64,000 bases of DNA. Origin: Candidatus Methanoperedens sp. GTDB lineage: Archaea > Halobacteriota > Methanosarcinia > Methanosarcinales > Methanoperedenaceae. The position numbers and the translations under genes are program-made. The stretch covers positions 1 to 64,000 of the forward strand of contig VEPM01000012.1 of the NCBI GenBank assembly GCA_012026795.1, written 5' to 3'. Shown here piece by piece: positions 146 through 58,970 of this stretch. Each line of letters opens with the position of its first letter. The stretch's first letter is position 1. The notes under the pieces are model-generated. The model worked only from the letters and a program-made list of their open reading frames with translations. It ran no database searches and was not told the DNA's origin.

Positions 146-775
146 ATGTTGTACAACTATGAAAAGAATCTCAGGACGACTGAGGAAAGAGTAAGAAGTT
201 CAAACACCAGTGAGGCGAATAAGCAGGTAATATTTGAGTATGAGAGCTATTGTTTTGCAGAAGACCTGAAAGTGGTGAGGGTGATAAAGCATTTAATGGA
301 GCTCAAAGTATTGGCAGAGGTGTTTGGAAAAGATTTCAGTAAGGCTTCCAAACAGGATGTTATTAAACTTGTGGGAGCTATAGAGCGTATGGATAGGTCT
401 GAAGCAACGAAGCGAGACTACAAGAATGAGAGCGGCGCCAGGATAAGCGAGCTTGGAAACCTTAAGATCAAGCATGTGAAGTTTGACCAGTATGGAGCCG
501 TTCTCATGGTAGATGGGAAGACCGGCATGCGTAGAGTGAGGATAATCTTCTCATCGCCTTACCTTGCCACTTGGCTCGTGAATCATCCTTTCAGGGATAA
601 TCCAGAGGCTTTTGTCTGGGTTAGGGATAGGCACCGTCGGCAGAAATGTACCCATGCAATATGGTGCTATCAGGATGCATCTTAAAAGAATGTGCGATCC
701 AGTTGAAAGATAGCCAAGGAGGAAAAAGAGCAACCACTCATATATTTTCCGAGATATTGCCTTGCTCAAGTCCAT
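146..775 (+). pseudogene. decayed tyrosine recombinase (integrase)
   Basis: The open frame (146-685) joins an archaeal integrase-like N-terminal SAM-like region (residues about 1-92) directly to the start of a catalytic domain: GARISELGNLKIKHV carries the box I Arg, followed by VDGKTGMRRVRI. The linker that normally separates them is missing, so an internal deletion is likely. After about 640 the catalytic homology continues in another frame (AIRMHLKRM, then KSNHSYIFRD, resembling the HPHLFRH box II), which has its own stop. The C-terminal Tyr region is not recognisable. I read this as the remnant of an integrated element whose recombinase has lost function through a deletion and at least one frameshift. 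Confidence 0.7.
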
Positions 776-1484: not shown

Positions 1485-1604
1485 AATCTCTTCTCAGAGT
1501 CATTAGAATAAAAGCCTTTTGATGTTGATGTTGAGGATTCGTCCACTTTAATAACATATCTTATGAGAACTTAAAGAAATTCAGATGACGACCCGTGACG
1601 ACTC

Positions 1605-1919
1605 TCAGAAACAATCATTCTTGTTGATCAGGCCATCATGAATATGATGCAGAGCCTGTCCAAGTTGAAATCCAGCATCGTTTTCTTTACCGCTTATCCA
1701 GAAGCGGCGGGCTTGCCCTATCAAGTCTATAATCTTACCGATGTTTGGATTATGGTGCGATTCCATTGATCTTCCATGTTCCTTCCTCCAGCTATTGGTC
1801 TTATCCGGGTATATTACACCTTCTAATAATCCTCTATATGTGGCATGAGGGACTTACTGCTTCCTTGCTGCCGCTATAACAAGTCGTCTATGATCTTTCC
1901 ATTTCATTTTAAGATACAT
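1605..1919 (-). pseudogene. zinc-dependent phospholipase C-like small protein, in-frame stop
   Basis: On the minus strand a frame starts with ATG at 1919 (MYLKMKWKDHRRLVIAAARK), meets TAA at 1856-1854, and continues in the same frame for about 82 codons to a TGA at 1607-1605. The downstream part includes HATYRGLLEGVIYPDK, HHNPNIGKIIDLIGQARRFW and FQLGQALHHIHDG. The pattern of Asp/His residues around 'YPD', 'HH' and 'ALHHIHD' recalls small archaeal relatives of zinc-dependent phospholipase C/S1-P1 nuclease folds. A single in-frame stop separates a good start from the conserved body, so this is best read as a recently inactivated gene. A sequencing error is the alternative. Confidence 0.5.
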
Positions 1920-1979
1920 ATCATACAAGATGAACAAGTAAATGTATTTGTCAATTGTCCATCTTCCTCTCTCCTAAAA

Positions 1980-2116
1980 CTGGTTTCGAAAACGGTTCTG
2001 CATATCGCCGAGGTCGCCCGAAGGGTGGGCGAGGCGCTCAAACCAGAAGAATAATACAAGTATGGCAAGCAGCCGCCGATGTTGAGTGAAGCGAAGCTGA
2101 GGCGGCGTACACTTGT
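1980..2116. ncRNA. candidate structured RNA: two tandem GC-rich compound hairpins
   Basis: Two nested inverted repeats lie side by side. The first has outer arms CTGGTTT (1980-1986) and AAACCAG (2040-2046), inner arms CGCC (2006-2009)/GGCG (2033-2036) and TCGCCC (2014-2019)/GGGCGA (2027-2032). The second has outer arms ACAAGT (2056-2061)/ACTTGT (2111-2116) and inner arms GCCGCC (2072-2077)/GGCGGC (2101-2106). The block is far more GC-rich than its surroundings and contains no convincing protein frame. Strand is undetermined. It could be a non-coding RNA or a palindromic repeat element; I recognise no known family. Confidence 0.4.
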
Positions 2117-2218
2117 CAGATCCGACAGATCTATATTTTGAAGCCAATCATCCAGTCAATTCCTGATGCTGAACGAATGCCCAACCGGAGCGTACCTTAA
2201 CCACATTCTGAAAAACCC

Positions 2219-3871
2219 CTATTTTGCACACAAAACCTCATGTATGGTTTTGAGTAACTTCCCGGTGGTGTAAGGTTTTGGCAAAAAAGCATCTGCAAGG
2301 TCTGAGACTTTCGCAAGTCTATCTTTTTCTGTCAATCCGCTTACTGCAATGATCTTGACATCGGGATTAATTCTCCGGATCGCCCGGATGCTTGACTGGC
2401 CATCCATTACCGGCATCATCATATCCATTAGAATAACTTTGATTTTATCTATATTTCCAGCATACAATGCTACTGCTTCTGCACCATCGTTAGCATTAAG
2501 CACTTTATACCCGTTATCTTCCAATATCGAAAAAGTAACATTACGAATTGCTTCTTCATCTTCAACAACAAGAATCCATTCCCCTTTTCCTGCGAGCAAT
2601 TCAGGTTGTTTCCGCTCCTCACATACCTTGTGTATTTCAGCTATTTCTGTTTTAATCGCAGGCAAATATATTCTGAATGCTGTTCCTTTCCCGATTTCGC
2701 TATACACATTAATGAATCCGCCGTGGCTTTTCACTATCGCAAGAGCAGTTGAAAGACCAAGACCTGTGCCTTTGCCATGCTCCTTTGTTGTGAAAAACGG
2801 TTCAAAAATCCTATCCATTATTTTAGGAGAAATACCTGTTCCGGTATCCGAGACTGCAATGACAACGTAAGAACCAACCTTTGCATCGGTATGCATCATC
2901 ACATAGTTCTTATCAACAAAAAAATTCGAGGCTATGATACTCAATACACCGCCACCTGGCATGGCATCACGGGCATTCACGCACAAATTCATTATAACCT
3001 GGTGCAACTGTGTGGCATCTCCTGAGATGGTAAAGAGATCATCCGGTACATCAGTCTGGAGTTTGATATCTCTTGGGAATGTCTCTTCTGCAATTTTCTC
3101 AATTTCAGATATAAGATGTGTTACCTCAAGAGGTTTGCGTTCACCTTCAACACCCCGTGCAAATGACATGACCTGCTTTATTAAATCAGCACTGCGCTGG
3201 GAGTTCATTTCAAGGATAGTAAGCAATTTCTGGCTCTGTTCATCTTTGAATTTTTCCTTTAGCATACGCAGAGACAGCATCATTGGCGTGAGCATATTGT
3301 TAAGATTATGCGCTATGCCGCCTGAAAGAATGCCTATGCTCTCCATCCGCTGCGCCCGCAATAACTGCGATTCAAGCCTTTTTCTCTCTGTGATGTCGAT
3401 TATCGCTGTTCTACATTGGCTGAAGTTACCCTCTCTATCCTGCACTGCAAGGCTCTCCAGCTGGACATCGAATTGATTCTTATTCTTATCCACAAGTCTA
3501 ATTTCGCAACTTTGCCTGGTTTTGGTTCTAAAAACATTACGCAGATGGCGATAAAACACATCTTTACTATTAAAATCCACGTAAAGAGAAAACGGTGTTT
3601 TAATCAAAAAACTCCTCTCTATTCTTAATTTATTAGCACCAGTTAGGTTTACTTCTATGATAAGCCCGTTTTTATCAAAAGTAAAATAACCTATTGGAGC
3701 GAAATCATATAGGTTAGAATACCTGTTGCGTGAGTCTTCAAGTTCGCTCTGTGTCCTGCGAAGCTCTTCGTTCTGCATTTCCAGTTCCATCTGGTGCACT
3801 TGCAGTTCATGAACCAGATGTTGGACATCCTTGGTCGATAGCTTCTGCAAGTCTACTGTCTGAGGTTTCAA
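2219..3871 (-). CDS. hybrid PAS sensor histidine kinase with receiver domain
   Basis: A 550-aa soluble hybrid kinase. A helical N-terminus (VQHLVHELQVHQMELEMQNEELRR) leads into a PAS domain (about 50-165). HisKA carries the phospho-acceptor His in GGIAHNLNNML. The HATPase domain has an N-box (NLCVNARDAMP), G1 (DTGTGIS) and G2 (GKGTGLGLS). The receiver domain (about 425-545) has acidic EDEE, phospho-acceptor Asp in LMDMMMP and Lys in LPKPY. All catalytic residues are present. There is no membrane segment, so it senses a cytoplasmic cue. The listed start is TTG. The frame stays open upstream to the TAA at 3970-3968, and that extension (SETLRKQAEIA) looks family-like but has no ATG. It follows the CheB-CheR genes on the same strand. 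Confidence 0.85.
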   Translation of the reverse strand: MKPQTVDLQKLSTKDVQHLVHELQVHQMELEMQNEELRRTQSELEDSRNRYSNLYDFAPIGYFTFDKNGLIIEVNLTGANKLRIERSFLIKTPFSLYVDFNSKDVFYRHLRNVFRTKTRQSCEIRLVDKNKNQFDVQLESLAVQDREGNFSQCRTAIIDITERKRLESQLLRAQRMESIGILSGGIAHNLNNMLTPMMLSLRMLKEKFKDEQSQKLLTILEMNSQRSADLIKQVMSFARGVEGERKPLEVTHLISEIEKIAEETFPRDIKLQTDVPDDLFTISGDATQLHQVIMNLCVNARDAMPGGGVLSIIASNFFVDKNYVMMHTDAKVGSYVVIAVSDTGTGISPKIMDRIFEPFFTTKEHGKGTGLGLSTALAIVKSHGGFINVYSEIGKGTAFRIYLPAIKTEIAEIHKVCEERKQPELLAGKGEWILVVEDEEAIRNVTFSILEDNGYKVLNANDGAEAVALYAGNIDKIKVILMDMMMPVMDGQSSIRAIRRINPDVKIIAVSGLTEKDRLAKVSDLADAFLPKPYTTGKLLKTIHEVLCAK

Positions 3872-3967: not shown

Positions 3968-6900
3968 TTAGAGCTTGTCTGAATATCTATTCTGGACAGG
4001 ATTAATTTTCATCCTGTAAATCCTGTCCAAACATTCAGTAATGTCTTCAATAGCCAGGAGTATTCTCTCTGCGCCCTCCGGCTGATATATCTTGTGTGCA
4101 TTGAGCAGCATTACCTTTCGCCCTGTGCCGGAAAACTCATGTTCAACTACGAAATCATTGAGCGCAGTGCCTTTCTGTAAGACATCCTCAAGCTTTTCTT
4201 TCAACTCCGGGATGTCCCACTGGCGGTTGCCTGTGTCGTAGAGGTGTTTGTTCATAGTGTCTTCCTGCGAAACCTGAAATGTCCTGTAAAAAGACTTATT
4301 GGCCATTATAACTTTCAGGTCTTTATCTAGCACCAGAACAGACTCGCGCATTGTATCTATGATGTTGTCAGTAAATACTCTGGCATCATGCTCTAATTTC
4401 TCACATCTCTTTCGCTCTGTGATATTAATGAATGTAATAACAACACCTTCAATAATGTTTTCAGCAGTCCGGTAGGGTAAAATTTTCATCAGGTACCACT
4501 TTTTATTTTTGGTATCCTGCATCTCTGACTCCCTGGGTACTAAAGTGTTGAGCACTTCGTCTGCATCTTTACTCAGATCCTTGTACACCAGGTTCGTGGC
4601 AATATCGATGATTGGTCTTCCGATATCAGTCCTGATCAGGTTTATTATCCTTGTGGCAGCCGGAGTAAAACCTTTAATGCGTGAATCGCCATCCAGAAAG
4701 ATGGTAGCGATCTCACTGCTTGAGATGACATTGTTCAGGTCGCTCACGGTTCTTGACAACTCTTCAATCTTGGTCTGATGCTCTGAGTTGAGAGTTACCA
4801 GCTCCTCGTTGAGCGACTGCAGCTCCTCTTTGGATGCATTCAGCTCCTCGTTTGTGCTCTGCAGTTCCTCATTTGCTGATTGTAGCTCCTCATTTGTCGA
4901 TCTTAGCTCCTCGTTGGAAGCCTGCAATTCCTCTATTGTTGCCTGGAGGTTCTCCCTTGTGGATTTCAATTCCTTTTCCAGATTCGAAACATACTTTTTA
5001 AGCTCTTCTGGCTCATAGACCGCTTTTTTTTCTTCTGATACTTCATGTTCATGCACCGGTACATCCTCAAAAGTGACCAGTATCAGCCCGGCCATGGTTT
5101 CCGGCTCCCTGATGGGCTTTATAGTTAAATTAATGGTTTGATAACCGCCGTTTGTCTTTACGCTCAAATCCCGAAAGATGGCATCCTTTTTCTGCGTTAC
5201 TGCTGTGTGAAGTGCTATGTTCAGTTCCGTTCTTATACCTTCACGCGCCATCTCAAGTATATTCCAGCTCGGTCTGCCAGGTGCAGGTTCAAGGTATTTG
5301 CCAGTTCTGCCGTGGATATAGAGGATATCACCTTTTTCATTCGCAATAACGCAGGGAGGGGCGTAGGCATCAAGCAGTATTTTCTCTGCCTGTTCTGCAA
5401 TCCTTGCCTGTCCATGTCTTACTTCACCCGGTCTGGTAACCTCAATCCTCGGTGCAGGGACTGGTGGTGCTATCAGAGGTAAATGTGCCTTCTCACCTGT
5501 GCTTCTGAAGATTTTCCATTTTTTATCAACAGCAGTATAGAGATCTGTGAGTTCTCCTATGGTCTCTGAACTTCCAAGGAAAAGGAACCCGGCCGGGTTT
5601 AAAGAATAGTGGAAAAGATACAATAGTTTTTTCTGTACATCTGGGACGAGGTAAATCAACAGGTTCCTGCAAATGATAAGGTCTATCTTTAAGAAAGGTG
5701 GGTCACTTATGACATTTTGGGGTGCAAATACCACCATCTCTCTTATATCTTTCTTAATACTGTAGCCCGGCAGGTCGGATTTTTTAACAAAAAAACGGCT
5801 CAAACGCTCAGGAGATACATCAATTGCGATGTTCTCAGGATAAACACCGGTACGGGCTACTTCAATCGCCTCCCTGTCCACATCGGTGGCGAAGATCTGG
5901 ATTTTGAAGTTGCTCTTTACCTCATCCATATATTCTCTGAAGATTATGGCTAAGGAATAGGCTTCTTCACCGGTGGAACATGCAGTCACCCAGCAGCGCA
6001 CCGGTTGAGAATAATTCCTGCCCTTCAGTACCTCCGGTATTGAGTTTTTTTTCAGGTTCTCAAAAGCATCAGGATCCCTGAAAAAACTGGTAACCCCAAT
6101 TAAAAATTCTTTGTAGAGAATATAAATCTCAGGCTGGTTCTCCTGAAGGTAATGGACATAATCTGCTATTTTATCTATCTGGTGAAGATTCATCCTCCGC
6201 TCTATCCTGCGTATGAGAGTACCCTGTTTGTAGTGGGAGAAATCCAGCCCTGTGTTATCCCGGACAAGAATAATTATTTTCTGGAGATGACTGGCAATCT
6301 GCTCGCTTATGACTTTTGCGGGTCTTATACCTGTAGCGTAGAATTGTTTTACATAGTTTAACAGTTGCTCAGGAATCTTCTCAGGCGGCAGGATGAAATC
6401 AACAAGCTCCGTGGCTATGGCGCTCCTGGGCATGCCGTCATAGAGTGCGGATTCTATGTTCTGGACAATGACCATGCCTCCTTCACCTTTTATGGCTTTC
6501 AAGCCCAGGGTGCCTTCCGTCCCTGTTCCTGAGAGAATAATGCAGATAGCCTTTTCTTTCTGGTCATCGGCTAATGATCTGAAAAAGAAATCTATTGGAT
6601 GCCGGACACCCCTGTGCACTATGGGTTCATAAAGATGCAGTATCCCGTGCAGAATTGCCATATCCTTGTTGGGTGGAATGATGTACACGCAGTTCTGCCT
6701 GACCTTCATCCCGTCTTCTACCTGAAAGACTTCCATTTTTGTATATCTCTTTAATATATCAGGCATGACGCTCTTGGCTTTGGGATCAAAGTGCATAACG
6801 ATTATAAAAGCTATTTCGCTGTCAGAAGGCATGTTAGCAAAAAATTTCTCTAAAGCCTCAAGTCCACCTGCTGATGCACCTATGCCCACTATAGGGAAAG

Positions 6901-7048
6901 TTTCCTTTTCATCTTGTTTATCGGTTTCGCTCCAGGCTTGAGAAGAAGGCTCTTCGGTATTTCCGGGGTTCTGGTCTCCTTTTGAGAGATCCGGGTTCTG
7001 CTTTTTGTTGTTATCTGATGTCTTTACCTTTTCAGTCATTTCACACAA
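3968..7048 (-). CDS. CheB-CheR fusion with PAS domains (copy 1)
   Basis: A 1026-aa cytoplasmic protein. After a charged linker comes a CheB methylesterase domain (about 51-235) with GASAGG nucleophile Ser59 and VMHFDP His, but the usual catalytic Asp in 'GTGxDG' is Glu (GTGTEGTLG). CheR follows (about 250-510) with SAM motif [10 protein letters not shown] and ICRNLLIY. Then come a PAS-like region, a heptad coiled coil built of repeated 'EELQSxNEEL' units (about 690-765), and two C-terminal PAS domains. The last residues ([21 protein letters not shown]) are encoded by a dispersed repeat, unlike the paralogue's end. A more usual start is the ATG at 7036. Role: receptor methylation/demethylation or a PAS signalling hub; no receptor gene is nearby. 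Confidence 0.85.
3970..4031. repeat. dispersed inverted-repeat element, copy A (partial)
   Basis: Read on the minus strand, this stretch (GGACAGGATTTACAGGAT, then AATCCTGTCCAGAATA, then ATTCAGACAAGCTCT) is nearly identical to 36403-36474. Differences are a few substitutions and a roughly 10-nt tandem unit. It carries one terminal arm (AGAGCTTGTCTGAA at 3970). The repeat supplies the last 20 or so codons and the stop of the CheB-CheR gene whose 3' end it occupies. Confidence 0.7.
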
Positions 7049-7100
7049 CCAGTATGGTATTAGTAACCATTTATTAATTAACCTGACGATGTTGGTTACA

Positions 7101-10100
7101 TCAGCTTTTCTCCTGGCTGCGCCCCGTTATATCTTCAATGGCAAGAAGGATTCTCTCTGTGCCCTTACCTTCCTGATAGATTCTGCGCGCATTGAGCAGT
7201 AATACCTTTTGTCCTATCCCGGGGAAGTCATGCTCGACCCTGAAATCATTGAACTGAGTGCTCTTCGGTACGATCTCCTCAAGCAGTTTTCTCAATTGCG
7301 GAATATCCCACTGGCGGTAACCAAGGTCGTAGATGAATCTGCTTTCAGTCTCATCCGGCGAAACTTTAAACATCCTGTAAAAAGATCGATTTGCAAGTAT
7401 GATCGTAAGGTTTTCATCCAGTACCAGAAGAGGCTCTCTTATCGTATCTATTATGCTCGTGGTAAATACCCGGTAATCCTGCTCCAGCATCATCTCAGCA
7501 TGCTTGAGCCTGGTGATATCAATGAATGAAATAACAACTCCATCGATAACGTTATCAATTGTCCGGTAGGGCGTAATCCTCATTAAATACCGTTTTTTAT
7601 TTCTTGTATCTTCTACCTCTTTTTCCCTGAAGACTAAATTGTCGAGCACCTGATCCGAATCTTTAGCCAGATCCACGTCCTTCAGGTTCAGAACAATATC
7701 ACTGATCGGGCGACCAATGTCGGTCCGAATGAGATTCATTATCCTGTTAGCTGAAGGGGTAAAACCTTTAATGATCAGGCTATTATCCAGAAAGATAGTG
7801 GCGATCTCCGTGCTTATGAGCACATTGCTCAGGTCGCTGGCAGATTTTGAGAGTTCGTCGATCTTGGTCTGGTGCTCCGCGTTGAGCGTTACCAGCTCCT
7901 CGTTGAGCGATTGCAGTTCTTCTTTGGATGCATTCAGCTCCTCGTTCGTGCTCTGCAGTTCCTCGTTGGCTGACTGCAATTCCTCGTTGGTCGATTTGAG
8001 TTCCTCGTTTGAGGTCTGAAGTTCCTCTATTGTTGCCTGCAGATTTTCTCTTGTGTACTTTAACTCTTTCTCCATTTCAGTAACATATTCTTCAGTCTGT
8101 TTCGATCCGGATGTTAGCTCAGCCGGCTTTGGGACTTCGCGGGGCGGCACATCCTCAAAGACCACCATTATCAGCCCCTGCAATCTTTCCGGCTCGTTTA
8201 TGGGCCTGACCGTCAGGTTGATGGTTTGAACAGAGCCGTTTGTTTTTACATTCAAATTCCGAAAGATAGCGTCCTTTTTTTGCGTTACGACTGTATGAAG
8301 TGCTATGTTCAACTCGGTCCTTATGCCCTGGCGCGCCATCTCCCGCACGTTCAGACTCGGTCTGCCGGACGCCGGCTCCAGATACTTACCCGTCCTCCCG
8401 TGGATATATAGAATATCACCTTTTTCATTTACAATAACACTCGGCGGTGTATAGGTATCGAGCAGCATCTTTTCGATCAGTTCGCCAATATTGACCGGTC
8501 TGGTTTTTATTTCACCCCGTCCCGGCACCTCGACCCTTAGAGCTGAGGGTATAACTCCCGGTACAGGGAGCAGAGGTGTCCTCTCCCCTTTACGTTTAAA
8601 GAGCTTCCATTTTTTATCAACAGGGGAGTAGAGATCTGTGGACTCACCTATAGTTTCTGAACTTCCAATGAAAAGAAATCCATCCTGGTTCAGAGAATAT
8701 TGGAAAATGAGAAGTAATTTTTTCTGTACCTCTGGTACAAGGTATATCATAAGATTCCTGCAACTGATAAGATCCATCCTGAGGAAAGGCGGGTCGCTTA
8801 TGACGTTTTGCGGTGCAAAGACCACCATTTCCCTTATATCTTTATTTACATTATAACTGTCGGAGTTTTTTATAAAAAAACGGCTCAAACGCTCAGGAGA
8901 TACATCGAGAGCGATATTCTCAGGATAAACACCGGTGCGGGCTGCCTCAATCGCTTCCCTGTCAACGTCGGTGGCAAAAATCTGGGCTTTGATATCGCTT
9001 TTTGTCTCATCCATGTATTCTTTCAGGATTATGGCTAAAGAATATGCTTCTTCACCGGTTGAGCACGCAGGAACCCATATCCTCACAGTCTGGTCAGGTG
9101 TCTTATTTTTAAATATCTCCGGCACTACCTCTTCTTTGAGAGCCTTGAAAGCCTCAGGTTCCCTGAAAAAACTTGTAACTCCAATTAAAAACTCTTTATG
9201 GAGAATCTGGATCTCAGCCGGGTTCTCCTGGAGGTAGCGGACATAATCCGATATCCTGCTAATCTGGTGCAGGTTCATCCGCCGGTCGATCCTGCGGATA
9301 AGTGTGCTTTGTTTGTATTGTGAAAAATCCAGCCCTGTCTGGTTCCGGATAAGTATAATTATTTTCTGCAGGTAATTAGTGATCTGTTCGCTCACTATTT
9401 TTTCAGGTCTTATACCTGTAGCATAGAATTGTTTTACATAGTTTAACAGTTGCTCAGGCATCTTCTCAGGCGGCAGGATGAAATCAACAAGCCCTGTGGC
9501 TATGGCGCTTCTTGGCATGCCATCGTAGGCAGCGGATTCTATACTTTGCACCATGACCGCCCCGCCCTCGCCCTTTATGGCTCGTAATCCCAGGGTGCCT
9601 TCGGTGCCTGTCCCTGAGAGAACGATGCAGATAGCATATTCCTTCTGGTCATCTGATAAAGACCTGAAAAAGAAATCTATCGGGTGTCTTACTCCCCTGT
9701 GCACTACAGGTTCGTATAAGTGCAGCGTCCTGTGCAGTATTGCCATGTCCTTGTTGGGCGGAATGATGTACACACAGTTCTGCCTGATTCTCATCCCGTC
9801 ATCTACCTGAAATACCTCCATATTTGTGTACTTCTTTAATATATCTGCCATAATGCTCTTGCCTGTAGGATCGAAGTGCATGACGACCACGAAAGCCACT
9901 CTGCTGTCGGATGGCATATTTGTGAAAAATTTTTCTAAAGCATCAAGACCGCCTGCTGAGGCGCCTATGCCTACTATGGGGAAGATGCCCTCTTCATCAG
10001 CAGTTTTATTTTCTATATCGGGAACAGATTCCCCGTCTTCTTTACTGTCAGATTCCTTTGGGAGCTCATGTCTTTCTTTGTTATTGGTTTTTGATTTCTT

Positions 10101-10115
10101 TCCCTTGTTAGTCAT
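7101..10115 (-). CDS. CheB-CheR fusion with PAS domains (copy 2)
   Basis: A 1004-aa paralogue of the downstream gene, with the same domain order and long identical runs in CheB, CheR and the coiled coil (about 675-750). CheB keeps GASAGG and VMHFDP but again has Glu in GTGTEGTLG where Asp is expected. CheR has [10 protein letters not shown] and SCRNLMIYL. Two PAS domains follow the coil, and the protein ends soon after AIEDITGRSQ. The 52-bp gap to copy 1 suggests co-transcription with it and with the histidine kinase. It starts 27 bp from the ORF that holds the separate plus-strand CheB, so this is a divergent control region. Tandem duplication with divergence is the simplest origin. Confidence 0.87.
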   Translation of the reverse strand: MTNKGKKSKTNNKERHELPKESDSKEDGESVPDIENKTADEEGIFPIVGIGASAGGLDALEKFFTNMPSDSRVAFVVVMHFDPTGKSIMADILKKYTNMEVFQVDDGMRIRQNCVYIIPPNKDMAILHRTLHLYEPVVHRGVRHPIDFFFRSLSDDQKEYAICIVLSGTGTEGTLGLRAIKGEGGAVMVQSIESAAYDGMPRSAIATGLVDFILPPEKMPEQLLNYVKQFYATGIRPEKIVSEQITNYLQKIIILIRNQTGLDFSQYKQSTLIRRIDRRMNLHQISRISDYVRYLQENPAEIQILHKEFLIGVTSFFREPEAFKALKEEVVPEIFKNKTPDQTVRIWVPACSTGEEAYSLAIILKEYMDETKSDIKAQIFATDVDREAIEAARTGVYPENIALDVSPERLSRFFIKNSDSYNVNKDIREMVVFAPQNVISDPPFLRMDLISCRNLMIYLVPEVQKKLLLIFQYSLNQDGFLFIGSSETIGESTDLYSPVDKKWKLFKRKGERTPLLPVPGVIPSALRVEVPGRGEIKTRPVNIGELIEKMLLDTYTPPSVIVNEKGDILYIHGRTGKYLEPASGRPSLNVREMARQGIRTELNIALHTVVTQKKDAIFRNLNVKTNGSVQTINLTVRPINEPERLQGLIMVVFEDVPPREVPKPAELTSGSKQTEEYVTEMEKELKYTRENLQATIEELQTSNEELKSTNEELQSANEELQSTNEELNASKEELQSLNEELVTLNAEHQTKIDELSKSASDLSNVLISTEIATIFLDNSLIIKGFTPSANRIMNLIRTDIGRPISDIVLNLKDVDLAKDSDQVLDNLVFREKEVEDTRNKKRYLMRITPYRTIDNVIDGVVISFIDITRLKHAEMMLEQDYRVFTTSIIDTIREPLLVLDENLTIILANRSFYRMFKVSPDETESRFIYDLGYRQWDIPQLRKLLEEIVPKSTQFNDFRVEHDFPGIGQKVLLLNARRIYQEGKGTERILLAIEDITGRSQEKS

Positions 10116-41467: not shown

Positions 41468-42664
41468 ATGGCAAGAAACATTCGCGTGGAAAAAATCACA
41501 CAGACTCCAATTGAAAAACAGGAGATTGAAATAGTAGAACGAAAAGGTGTAGGGCACCCGGACAGCATGGCTGACGGTTTTGCAGAATCGGTAAGCAGGG
41601 CGCTTTGCAATGAATATATCAAAAAATGCGGCACAATCCTTCATCATAATACAGACCAGGTCGAGGTCGTAGCCGGGCGTTCCTGCCCTGAATGCCGGGG
41701 CGGGGAATTGATCTCACCTATCTATGTATTGCTTGTTGGAAGGGCAACAAAAGAATTTAAAGATACAAAAATAGCCACAGATACCACAGCAATAAGAGCT
41801 GCAAAGAATTATCTTAAAACCACTCTTCCTGATATTGATTCGGAACATGATATTATCATAGATTGTAAACTTGGTACGGGCTCAACAGACCTCCAGAGTG
41901 TTTTTAATCGCAGGAAAGCGCCAATGGCCAACGATACATCTTTTGGTGTAGGCCATGCCCCGTTTTCAGAAGTGGAGAATATAGTTTATAATACCGAACG
42001 CCAGATGGTCTTGAATTTCAAGAAGGATCTTCCCGCCATCGGAACAGACATCAAGGTCATGGGTATGAGGAAGAATGAAAAAATAACCCTCACAGTAGCA
42101 TGCGCCATGATAGGCAAACATATTGATGACAATTCACATTACTTCAATATAAAGGATGAACTCCGCGACAAAATATGCGACCTTGCTGAAGAATATACCG
42201 ACCGCGAGGTAGAAGTCTTCATAAATACGGGTGATGATGAAAAAACAGGCTCGATTTACCTGACAGTTACAGGAACTTCTGCTGAAATGGGTGACGATGG
42301 CTCAGTCGGGCGCGGCAACAGGTGCAACGGCCTGATCACGCCCAACAGGCCCATGAGCATGGAAGCCACAAGCGGGAAGAATCCAATAAACCATGTAGGA
42401 AAACTATACAACCTTCTTTCTAACCAGATTGCCAAGGATATTGCAGCAAATGTCCCTGGCATCGAAGATGCGTATATCAGGATTCTTTCCCAGATCGGTC
42501 ATCCGATCGATGAGCCATTGATCGCAAGCGCCCAGATAATACCGCAGGATGGCGCCAATATGAAAGCCATCAAATCCGAGTCTGAAGTTATAATTGATAA
42601 ATGGCTCAACGATATTACAAAGATCACCGATATGACTACAAGGGGAGAGCTGGAAACTTTCTAG
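41468..42664 (+). CDS. archaeal-type S-adenosylmethionine synthetase (divergent copy)
   Basis: A 398-aa archaeal MAT-family enzyme ([65 protein letters not shown]). It makes SAM from methionine and ATP. A second family member is at 52586-53785, and the two differ through most of their length. This copy carries an insertion with CPECRGGEL near residue 75 that the other lacks. Shine-Dalgarno GAGGT precedes the ATG. The neighbours taw1 and yjbQ are unrelated to methionine synthesis. Confidence 0.85.
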
Positions 42665-52585: not shown

Positions 52586-53785
52586 TCAGTTAACTGGTAT
52601 TTTCCCATACGCCAGTTCCATGCAGAATTCCTGGATGCTGGCAAGTTCCCTGTCGATAACCTCATCTATCTCTTTTTCCACACTTTCAAGAGTTCCTCTC
52701 TCCATAATGACCTGCGCTGCTGCTATCCTTGGCTGGTCGATTGGCTCTCCTATCTGGCTCAAAAGCCATACATAGACTTCTTTTATGTCCGGGACATTGG
52801 CATATATCTTATTTGCGATCCTGTGGCTCAGGGCGTTGTATATTTTTCCCACATGGCTTACAGGGTTTTTTCCGGCGGCTGCTTCACTGCTTACCGGACG
52901 GTTCAATGGAATGATGCCGTTCACGCGGTTCCCGCGCCCCACCTGGCCGGAATCCGCATCCTCAGCAGAAGTTCCGGTTACGGTGAGGTAAATCCCGCCC
53001 ATGCCCCGCCTTTCCCTGTCAAGCGTGTTCAGGGAAATGGAAGGTTCAAATTCCATCTTCCCGGTAACATAAGTTCGTATCTCTTCCAGCAATTCTTCTT
53101 TTTTCCTGAAATACCCTGCTTCTGATTCGACATACATATCTATAAGAGGGTCTGCAATGGTCAAATTGAGTTTATTCTTTTCCCGCAAACCCATGACCTT
53201 AATATCCTCACCCGATTCAGGGAATCTTTTCTTAAAATCCGGGGAGTTCAAATACTTCTCAGTTTCAAGAACCAGTGTCTCCGTGGGTGTCATAGGTGCA
53301 TATCCAACAGCCGCCGAGGTATCATTAGCGCCAAGTATTGCATCTTTTCTCTTGAATATATCCGTAAGTTCTGCCGAACCCCTTGCAAGTTCAACCTGAT
53401 AAAGAATAGAATCACTATTTACAAAGCGCAAGTTCTCATTAATCCATTCTTTTGCGGCTTCAATAGCAATAGTATTTACATCTATAACCTCATTTTCGAC
53501 CTCAAAAGTAGCCCTGTCCCCGAAAATGATGCGCATCGGTTTTAGTATCACCCCGCCTCCAAATTTTGTCTTCACCTCGCCTGCAACAAGCATCCCCTTA
53601 TCGATATTATGGTGCATGATAGCTCCAAACCTCTCCATATATTCCTTACACAGGCGAATGGAGACCTCGTTCATTATGGAATCACAGATATAATCAGGAT
53701 GTCCAAGTCCTTTTCGTTCTACAACTTCGACTTTTCGCTCAGTTATCGGGGTTGCACTGAATTCGTCAATTTCAATATTTCTCAA
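52586..53785 (-). CDS. mat: archaeal S-adenosylmethionine synthetase
   Basis: A 399-aa archaeal [123 protein letters not shown] in the family's order. It looks like the orthodox archaeal enzyme, against the more divergent copy at 41468-42664. The 5' side faces the gamma-carbonic-anhydrase-like gene, which is upstream on the same strand by 9 bp, suggesting a common transcript. Confidence 0.93.
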   Translation of the reverse strand: MRNIEIDEFSATPITERKVEVVERKGLGHPDYICDSIMNEVSIRLCKEYMERFGAIMHHNIDKGMLVAGEVKTKFGGGVILKPMRIIFGDRATFEVENEVIDVNTIAIEAAKEWINENLRFVNSDSILYQVELARGSAELTDIFKRKDAILGANDTSAAVGYAPMTPTETLVLETEKYLNSPDFKKRFPESGEDIKVMGLREKNKLNLTIADPLIDMYVESEAGYFRKKEELLEEIRTYVTGKMEFEPSISLNTLDRERRGMGGIYLTVTGTSAEDADSGQVGRGNRVNGIIPLNRPVSSEAAAGKNPVSHVGKIYNALSHRIANKIYANVPDIKEVYVWLLSQIGEPIDQPRIAAAQVIMERGTLESVEKEIDEVIDRELASIQEFCMELAYGKIPVN

Positions 53786-58862: not shown

Positions 58863-58970
58863 GCTCCGATAGTGTAGCAGGCCAATCATTCTGGCCTTTC
58901 AAGTTTTAAGCGCCAGAAGGTGCTGAAATAAAGATAGCCAGTGACTCGGGTTCAAATCCCGATCGGAGCA
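58863..58970 (+). tRNA. tRNA-Glu (UUC) with 34-nt intron
   Basis: Acceptor GCTCCGA pairs with TCGGAGC (58863-58869/58963-58969), discriminator A. T-arm ACTCGGGTTCAAATCCCGA. Anticodon stem CTGGC (58891-58895)/GCCAG (58937-58941), anticodon TTC at 58898-58900. Between position 37 (58901) and position 38 (58936) lies an intron (58902-58935) with its own hairpin AGCGCC/GGTGCT, at the standard archaeal site for the splicing endonuclease. Confidence 0.93.

Follow-up and report, generated by a model that had tools for sequence, protein, structure and literature searches.

REP and BIME elements are short, GC-rich, imperfect hairpins with conserved mismatches that lie in pairs between genes and are linked to the RAYT Y1 transposases. 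The attC sites of integrons carry R'' and R' boxes, with consensus RYYYAAC and GTTRRRY, at the site ends. In Ghaly et al. 2022 (PMC9668308), attC sites are taken to be clustered when they are <4 kb apart, and integrase-less arrays (CALINs) are known for integrons, archaeal ones included. Here, we characterized an element with likenesses to both systems in a window of 64,000 nucleotides, the start of a 125-kb contig (C12) from the 3.6-Mb genome of a methane-oxidising archaeon, a genome that holds a single copy. Tentatively, and with confidence somewhat short of even, we read its module A, which is often joined to a second module B, as a structured DNA repeat at accessory-gene junctions whose likely working form is a folded single strand.

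Structure of the two-hairpin module

The element was delimited with an alignment (A1) of 14 strong copies and a covariance model (R1) built from them. A search with R1 then added a fifteenth strong copy (G006, 34.7 bits), which does not enter the covariation, strand, flank-permutation and boundary counts. The following parts were assigned in the window:

2005..2117, + strand: module A, comprising HP1, a spacer and HP2, ~112 nt (R1, 110.8 bits)
2005..2037, + strand: HP1, with outer stem CGCC/GGCG, an inner stem and a GAA triloop (alignment A1)
2038..2071, + strand: spacer between HP1 and HP2, variable, 32-43 nt across 14 copies (alignment A1)
2072..2106, + strand: HP2, with outer stem GCCGCC/GGCGGC, an inner stem and a GAA triloop (alignment A1)

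Both hairpins follow one rule, in which a GC-rich outer stem leads through a tandem G.A/A.G mismatch into an inner stem that is capped by a GAA or GGA triloop. The tandem mismatch is found in 14 of 14 copies and in both hairpins: it is invariant between the outer and inner stems of HP1 (alignment A1), and in HP2 the G.A/A.G mismatches, a T.T mismatch and a T.G wobble are all invariant. Two copies have a shortened HP2 without the GAA/GGA triloop. Double changes occurred at 8 pairs, in a total of 21 cells over the 14 copies, versus 8.7 in shuffles that leave the relatedness of the copies in place (0 of 500 as high), and slid controls gave at most 10 double-change cells. The HP1 inner pair at columns 16-22 is C-G in 8 of 14 copies and G-C in 6, the HP2 pair at columns 101-113 occurs as three types (G-C, T-A and C-G), and copy L021b carries two adjacent pair swaps in the HP2 outer stem. 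Together, these data support an inner-hairpin structure in both HP1 and HP2 that is conserved and under selection.

The non-Watson-Crick cells of the 31-pair structure differ by strand. Read on the + strand, the 14 copies hold 91 G.A and 39 G.T cells (130), versus 6 C.T and 4 A.C cells (10) of the opposite class; the remaining 34 are G.G, T.T, C.C or A.A. This asymmetry marks the + strand of the window as the one predicted to fold.

The folding energy of the window stretch by itself is a weak, unremarkable signal, with z-scores against dinucleotide-shuffled controls of -1.77 for the whole stretch on the + strand and, taken singly, -1.19 (first hairpin) and -2.92 (second hairpin); the main evidence for structure is conservation, not energy. 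The weak z-scores would suit chance nested inverted repeats within a GC-rich patch. This explanation is refuted by the conservation of 15 homologous copies with compensatory change, and we rejected pure chance on the covariation given above, leaving it extremely improbable.

The first-pass annotation had described two compound hairpins of a shared outer-plus-inner design at 1980-2116, and all four of the arm pairs that it named were found in the window sequence, as two nested inverted repeats:

1980-1986 and 2040-2046: arm pair CTGGTTT/AAACCAG, enclosing TCGCCC/GGGCGA
2056-2061 and 2111-2116: arm pair ACAAGT/ACTTGT, enclosing GCCGCC/GGCGGC

The compensatory changes in 14 copies bear out the inner hairpins but the outer arms fell to flank permutations. 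When flanks were swapped between the 14 copies, matched flanks paired no better than mismatched ones: the observed mean was reached by 5494 of 20000 permutations around HP1, 6631 of 20000 around HP2 and 6317 of 20000 for a helix enclosing both. The outer arms were rejected as conserved structure on this basis, which leaves the shared design unsupported. Only three copies, the window's included, share an upstream flank; there, 78% of outer-arm cells are paired, with 2 double-change pairs, and 48 of 500 shuffles score as high. The limits of the element are better set at 2005-2117 than at 1980-2116. That no protein frame explains the hairpins was confirmed: a 69-aa + strand ORF at 1845-2054 (ORF list) overlaps HP1, but indels between the copies would break a reading frame, their lengths not being divisible by three, and coding sequence was rejected.

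Copies, edges and neighbouring genes

A DNA search of 34 family genomes met diverged copies in several genomes of the same genus. The first-pass annotation had proposed a covariance search of related archaeal genomes, and this search succeeded: R1 returned 15 strong matches (E 1e-5 or better), homologues with compensatory changes, in 7 of the 34. The copy count excludes 7 weak rows of the family search (E 0.01-1), as well as L024:6482-6581 (23.1 bits) and other rows <24 bits. Across 237 genomes of the class, R1 found the same 7 genomes and one weak match (G049, E 0.005). Strong copies of module A number 1-4 per genome, with one by R1 in the window's own, and their core identity to the window's copy is about 67-82%. 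Five genomes have several copies, and each of them keeps its whole set on a single contig: one has 4 copies within 4.6 kb, one has 3 within 5.9 kb, and the other three have 2 each, within 1.5, 2.4 and 3.3 kb. The first-pass annotation had held that many dispersed identical copies would indicate a repeat element rather than an RNA gene. The element is indeed a repeat, with copies that are few, diverged and clustered rather than dispersed or identical. An HP1 pattern scan of named genomes met five of the array contigs, 3 from Candidatus Methanoperedens, 1 from a Methanosarcinales archaeon and 1 from an uncultured archaeon. At L021:6600-13000, about 6 kb with four module A copies contains almost no confident (large) ORF.

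By pairwise comparison, similarity between copies ends sharply at the HP1 foot. Of 91 copy pairs, 79 show 70% identity or more over the opening 20 nt of HP1, and 2 do so over the 20 nt directly upstream; random stretches, used as a control, reached at least 70% identity in 1 of 2000. At the other end, some copies run on beyond HP2 into a structured module B (HP3 and HP4), for which the model R2 gave 21 matches in 9 of 34 genomes, part of them clustered and part single. As R2 has no match in the window's own genome, the corresponding stretch of the window is at most a remnant of module B:

2118..2186, + strand: probable decayed module B remnant (L026:2320-2535 versus window 1976-2186, 70%)

A cassette with a 162-aa gene (L023) recurs with DNA that is 92% identical in G006 and 86% identical in G023 and G004. 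Module B follows the gene every time in these four genomes, and the sequence beyond module B is different in all four, with nothing common by eye. In L023, module A ends exactly at the cassette start, the break being the foot of HP1, and in L025 and L115 a B-like element precedes the cassette in place of module A. The 5' edge in L114 is uninformative because about 400 bp interrupt the 5' part of the cassette. Breaks are seen on the HP2 side as well (L022 versus L023). Separately, two genomes (L025:5300-17125 and L114:1303-7078) have both module B and the 162-aa cassette located 3' of a ~1075-aa ORF, which suggests a common chromosomal hot spot.

The genes around the copies include typical accessory cargo (TumE, AbiE, ArdC, glyoxalase, RibD_C and PNPOx) as well as PAS and methyltransferase proteins. 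The window's own neighbours are:

824-1171, - strand: TumE-type toxin (PF20126, E 8e-19)
1164-1484, - strand: partner ORF overlapping the TumE-type toxin, with no hit in the domain search
1564..1980, - strand: decayed gene next to the foot of HP1 (77% identity between window 1621-2137 and L024:8375-7865)
2219..3871, - strand: ORF flanking HP2 whose sequence, by eye, resembles a sensor kinase (ORF list)

Within 1564-1980, the ORF list contains no - strand ORF of at least 60 aa; the open L024 relative of the decayed gene matches PF00882 (Zn_dep_PLPC) at E 0.0006, under the curated cut-off. Both genes neighbouring the element in the window read opposite to the folded strand (ORF list), and a gene can be read on the HP1 side in 11 copies; by our own count it lies opposite to the folded strand in 6 of these and not in the other 5.

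Four further features of the window were recorded. At the contig edge, a short ORF at 146-685 (+) matches an integrase family weakly (phrog_216, E 0.009), has no Pfam hit and may be what is left of a tyrosine recombinase. A 108-nt Rfam tRNA match at 58863-58970 (+), absent from the ARAGORN output, is possibly an intron-containing archaeal tRNA. Two adjacent ORFs of ~1000 aa at 3968-10115 (-) are very similar, paralogue-like and contain repeated stretches, and two ORFs of ~400 aa, about 10 kb apart at 41468-42664 (+) and 52586-53785 (-), look by eye like archaeal S-adenosylmethionine synthetases.

RNA and passive repeats as alternatives

Compensatory changes in the hairpins, G.T wobbles kept on one strand and the sharp 5' edge at HP1 would fit a structured RNA from the + strand, either a free-standing ncRNA or one processed from a longer antisense transcript, as would RNA energy parameters, which favour the + strand of HP2 (-16.5 versus -11.2 kcal/mol). 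However, the upstream sequence is not common to the copies (the 2 of 91 pairs above), and in a simple consensus test for TATA-like boxes upstream of HP1 the best scores for 15 copies were 4-6 of 8 against a background mean of 4.56. Several copies are clustered per genome, and no Rfam family matched at its gathering score: Rfam 15 returned nothing but two tRNA matches in the whole window, window 1900-2250 and five loci, searched permissively, showed chance-level matches only, none near gathering score, and a curated Rfam family was rejected. We consider a structured RNA rather unlikely, though a serious rival. What stands of the structured RNA with archaeal homologues that the first-pass annotation had proposed is the conserved structure, the covariation and the strong preference for one strand; we do not favour a separate ncRNA gene of 130-150 nt, given up to four clustered copies, no common upstream sequence and no TATA-like box above background.

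The element could also be a passive palindromic repeat or a non-autonomous mobile element (REP- or MITE-like) that accumulates where accessory genes are gained and has no cassette function of its own. It is short and repeated, with unrelated flanks on both sides, and several long-form copies start GCGCCGGGG and end CCTCGGCGC on the gene-sense strand, ends that form an imperfect terminal inverted repeat by eye. Y1 transposase genes (PF01797) are at hand in 31 of 34 genomes, a frequency at which their presence is not discriminating, and they do not track the element, which occurs in 7 of 34. Moreover, a genome holds at most 4 module A copies, on one contig and not dispersed; the divergence of the copies from the window's (core identity as above) indicates no recent burst; and no target duplication was noticed by eye. 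We regard a repeat of this kind as rather unlikely, though a serious rival. In its short GC-rich imperfect hairpins with conserved mismatches, occurring in pairs between genes, the element is like REP/BIME. It is unlike them in that its strong copies (1-4) are few and clustered on one contig, as opposed to many dispersed genome-wide, in that it lacks a conserved sequence at the HP1 5' foot, and in that HP1 and HP2 share orientation.

Comparison with folded recombination sites

We favour, as a tentative model, a structured DNA element that sits at junctions within the mosaic stretches of accessory genes in Ca. Methanoperedens chromosomes. The + strand would fold into two hairpins and act in this single-stranded form, which a recombinase or transposase provided in trans would recognise; neighbouring genes would then be joined or moved at the HP1 foot, as at attC hairpins in integrons. 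The conserved and covarying hairpins, their strand asymmetry, the clustered copies, the sharp HP1 edge and one cassette whose neighbours differ at that edge were all observed and, with the accessory cargo, argue for a junction element; the single-stranded DNA working form and the recombinase we infer. Against this model, no recombinase accompanies the arrays and there are no attC boxes, the neighbouring genes are in mixed orientation, breaks on both sides of module A give no one fixed crossover point, and module B is found singly between ordinary chromosomal genes in L116. The shortness of the MAG contigs and the lone copy in the window's own genome also count against it.

Of 15 copies, 1 has GTTRRRY in the 40 nt outside HP1 and 0 have RYYYAAC in the 40 nt outside HP2; with no box pair in 15 copies, attC membership was rejected. 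The clustered copies lie <4 kb apart among small cassette genes, as attC sites do. Compared with attC sites (PMC9668308), the element is alike in its predicted strand-specific fold, its clustering between small accessory genes and the loss of similarity at the site edge, and differs in having two separate hairpins rather than one; unlike those of integrons, its arrays have mixed gene orientation.

No integron integrase (TIGR02249) exceeded the cut-off in the seven element-bearing genomes. Among the 34 genomes, matches over cut-off occurred only in G020 and G025, two genomes of this genus, neither with strong copies, on contigs of 3.4 and 3.9 kb (L096, G020:C157; L097, G025:C5); these may represent a true archaeal integron or misbinned contigs. 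R1 had no match on the two integron-integrase contigs and one weak match in L098 (19.6 bits). No recombinase adjoining the arrays was found on copy-bearing contigs, where Phage_integrase matches were confined to two genomes, at distances of about 50 kb (G030) and about 54 kb (G006). Plasmid and phage comparisons yielded none or one short match each (E about 0.7-0.8), and the HP1 pattern had 0 matches in viral contigs. Literature searches on Methanoperedens integrons, intergenic repeats or hairpins and structured or noncoding RNA, and on GCGAAGC/sheared hairpins, gave no paper that, by title and abstract opening, describes this element.

The HP1 pattern occurred in 27 stretches of the genome collection, 7 archaeal and 7 from Caldilineaceae (Chloroflexota). 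In several loci, the intergenic hairpins of Caldilineaceae have the identical 27-nt HP1 core, CCGAGGTCGAGCGAAGCGAGGGCGAGG. An HP2-like hairpin lies directly downstream of HP1 in L059 and L071; most Caldilineaceae loci lack HP2, and their outer stems differ (GGGCGGCCC/GGGCCGCCC in most). In one Chloroflexota locus (L138), the HP1 interior is kept within a different yet complementary outer stem, GGTTGCC/GGCAACC. R1 scored 20 non-archaeal loci as HP1-only or weak (best 27.7 bits). Hairpins of the Caldilineaceae type were clustered in the three genomes searched, and of 46 genomes from the order of one of these three, 6 matched at E<=0.01 (best 5e-4). In four genomes with such a hairpin, two of the Phage_integrase matches share a contig with hairpins, at least 13 kb away. 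Near the Caldilineaceae hairpin clusters (L071, about 2180-2400), inverted CCGTATAA...TTATA repeats with a short spacer were seen by eye, with translated traces in L059, L070 and L079; by eye, they resemble tyrosine-recombinase core sites. The likeness between archaeal and Chloroflexota hairpins may reflect descent, transfer, or convergence towards a hairpin design that is stable.

A broader proposal, which we consider doubtful, is a non-integron cassette system in Ca. Methanoperedens, with paired single-stranded DNA hairpins that keep tandem G.A mismatches and GAA-type triloops as recombination sites, and with related hairpins at work in Chloroflexota; if true, archaea and bacteria could exchange accessory genes through an enzyme yet to be named. 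A strand-specific, structurally conserved junction element offers a handle on the route by which Ca. Methanoperedens chromosomes gain accessory genes. With its strand-specific fold, its clustering and its edges at changes of neighbourhood, the element resembles folded single-strand recombination sites outside the attC family; were it a recombination site, attC would gain a counterpart that also works as folded single-stranded DNA and that has similar forms in archaea and bacteria.
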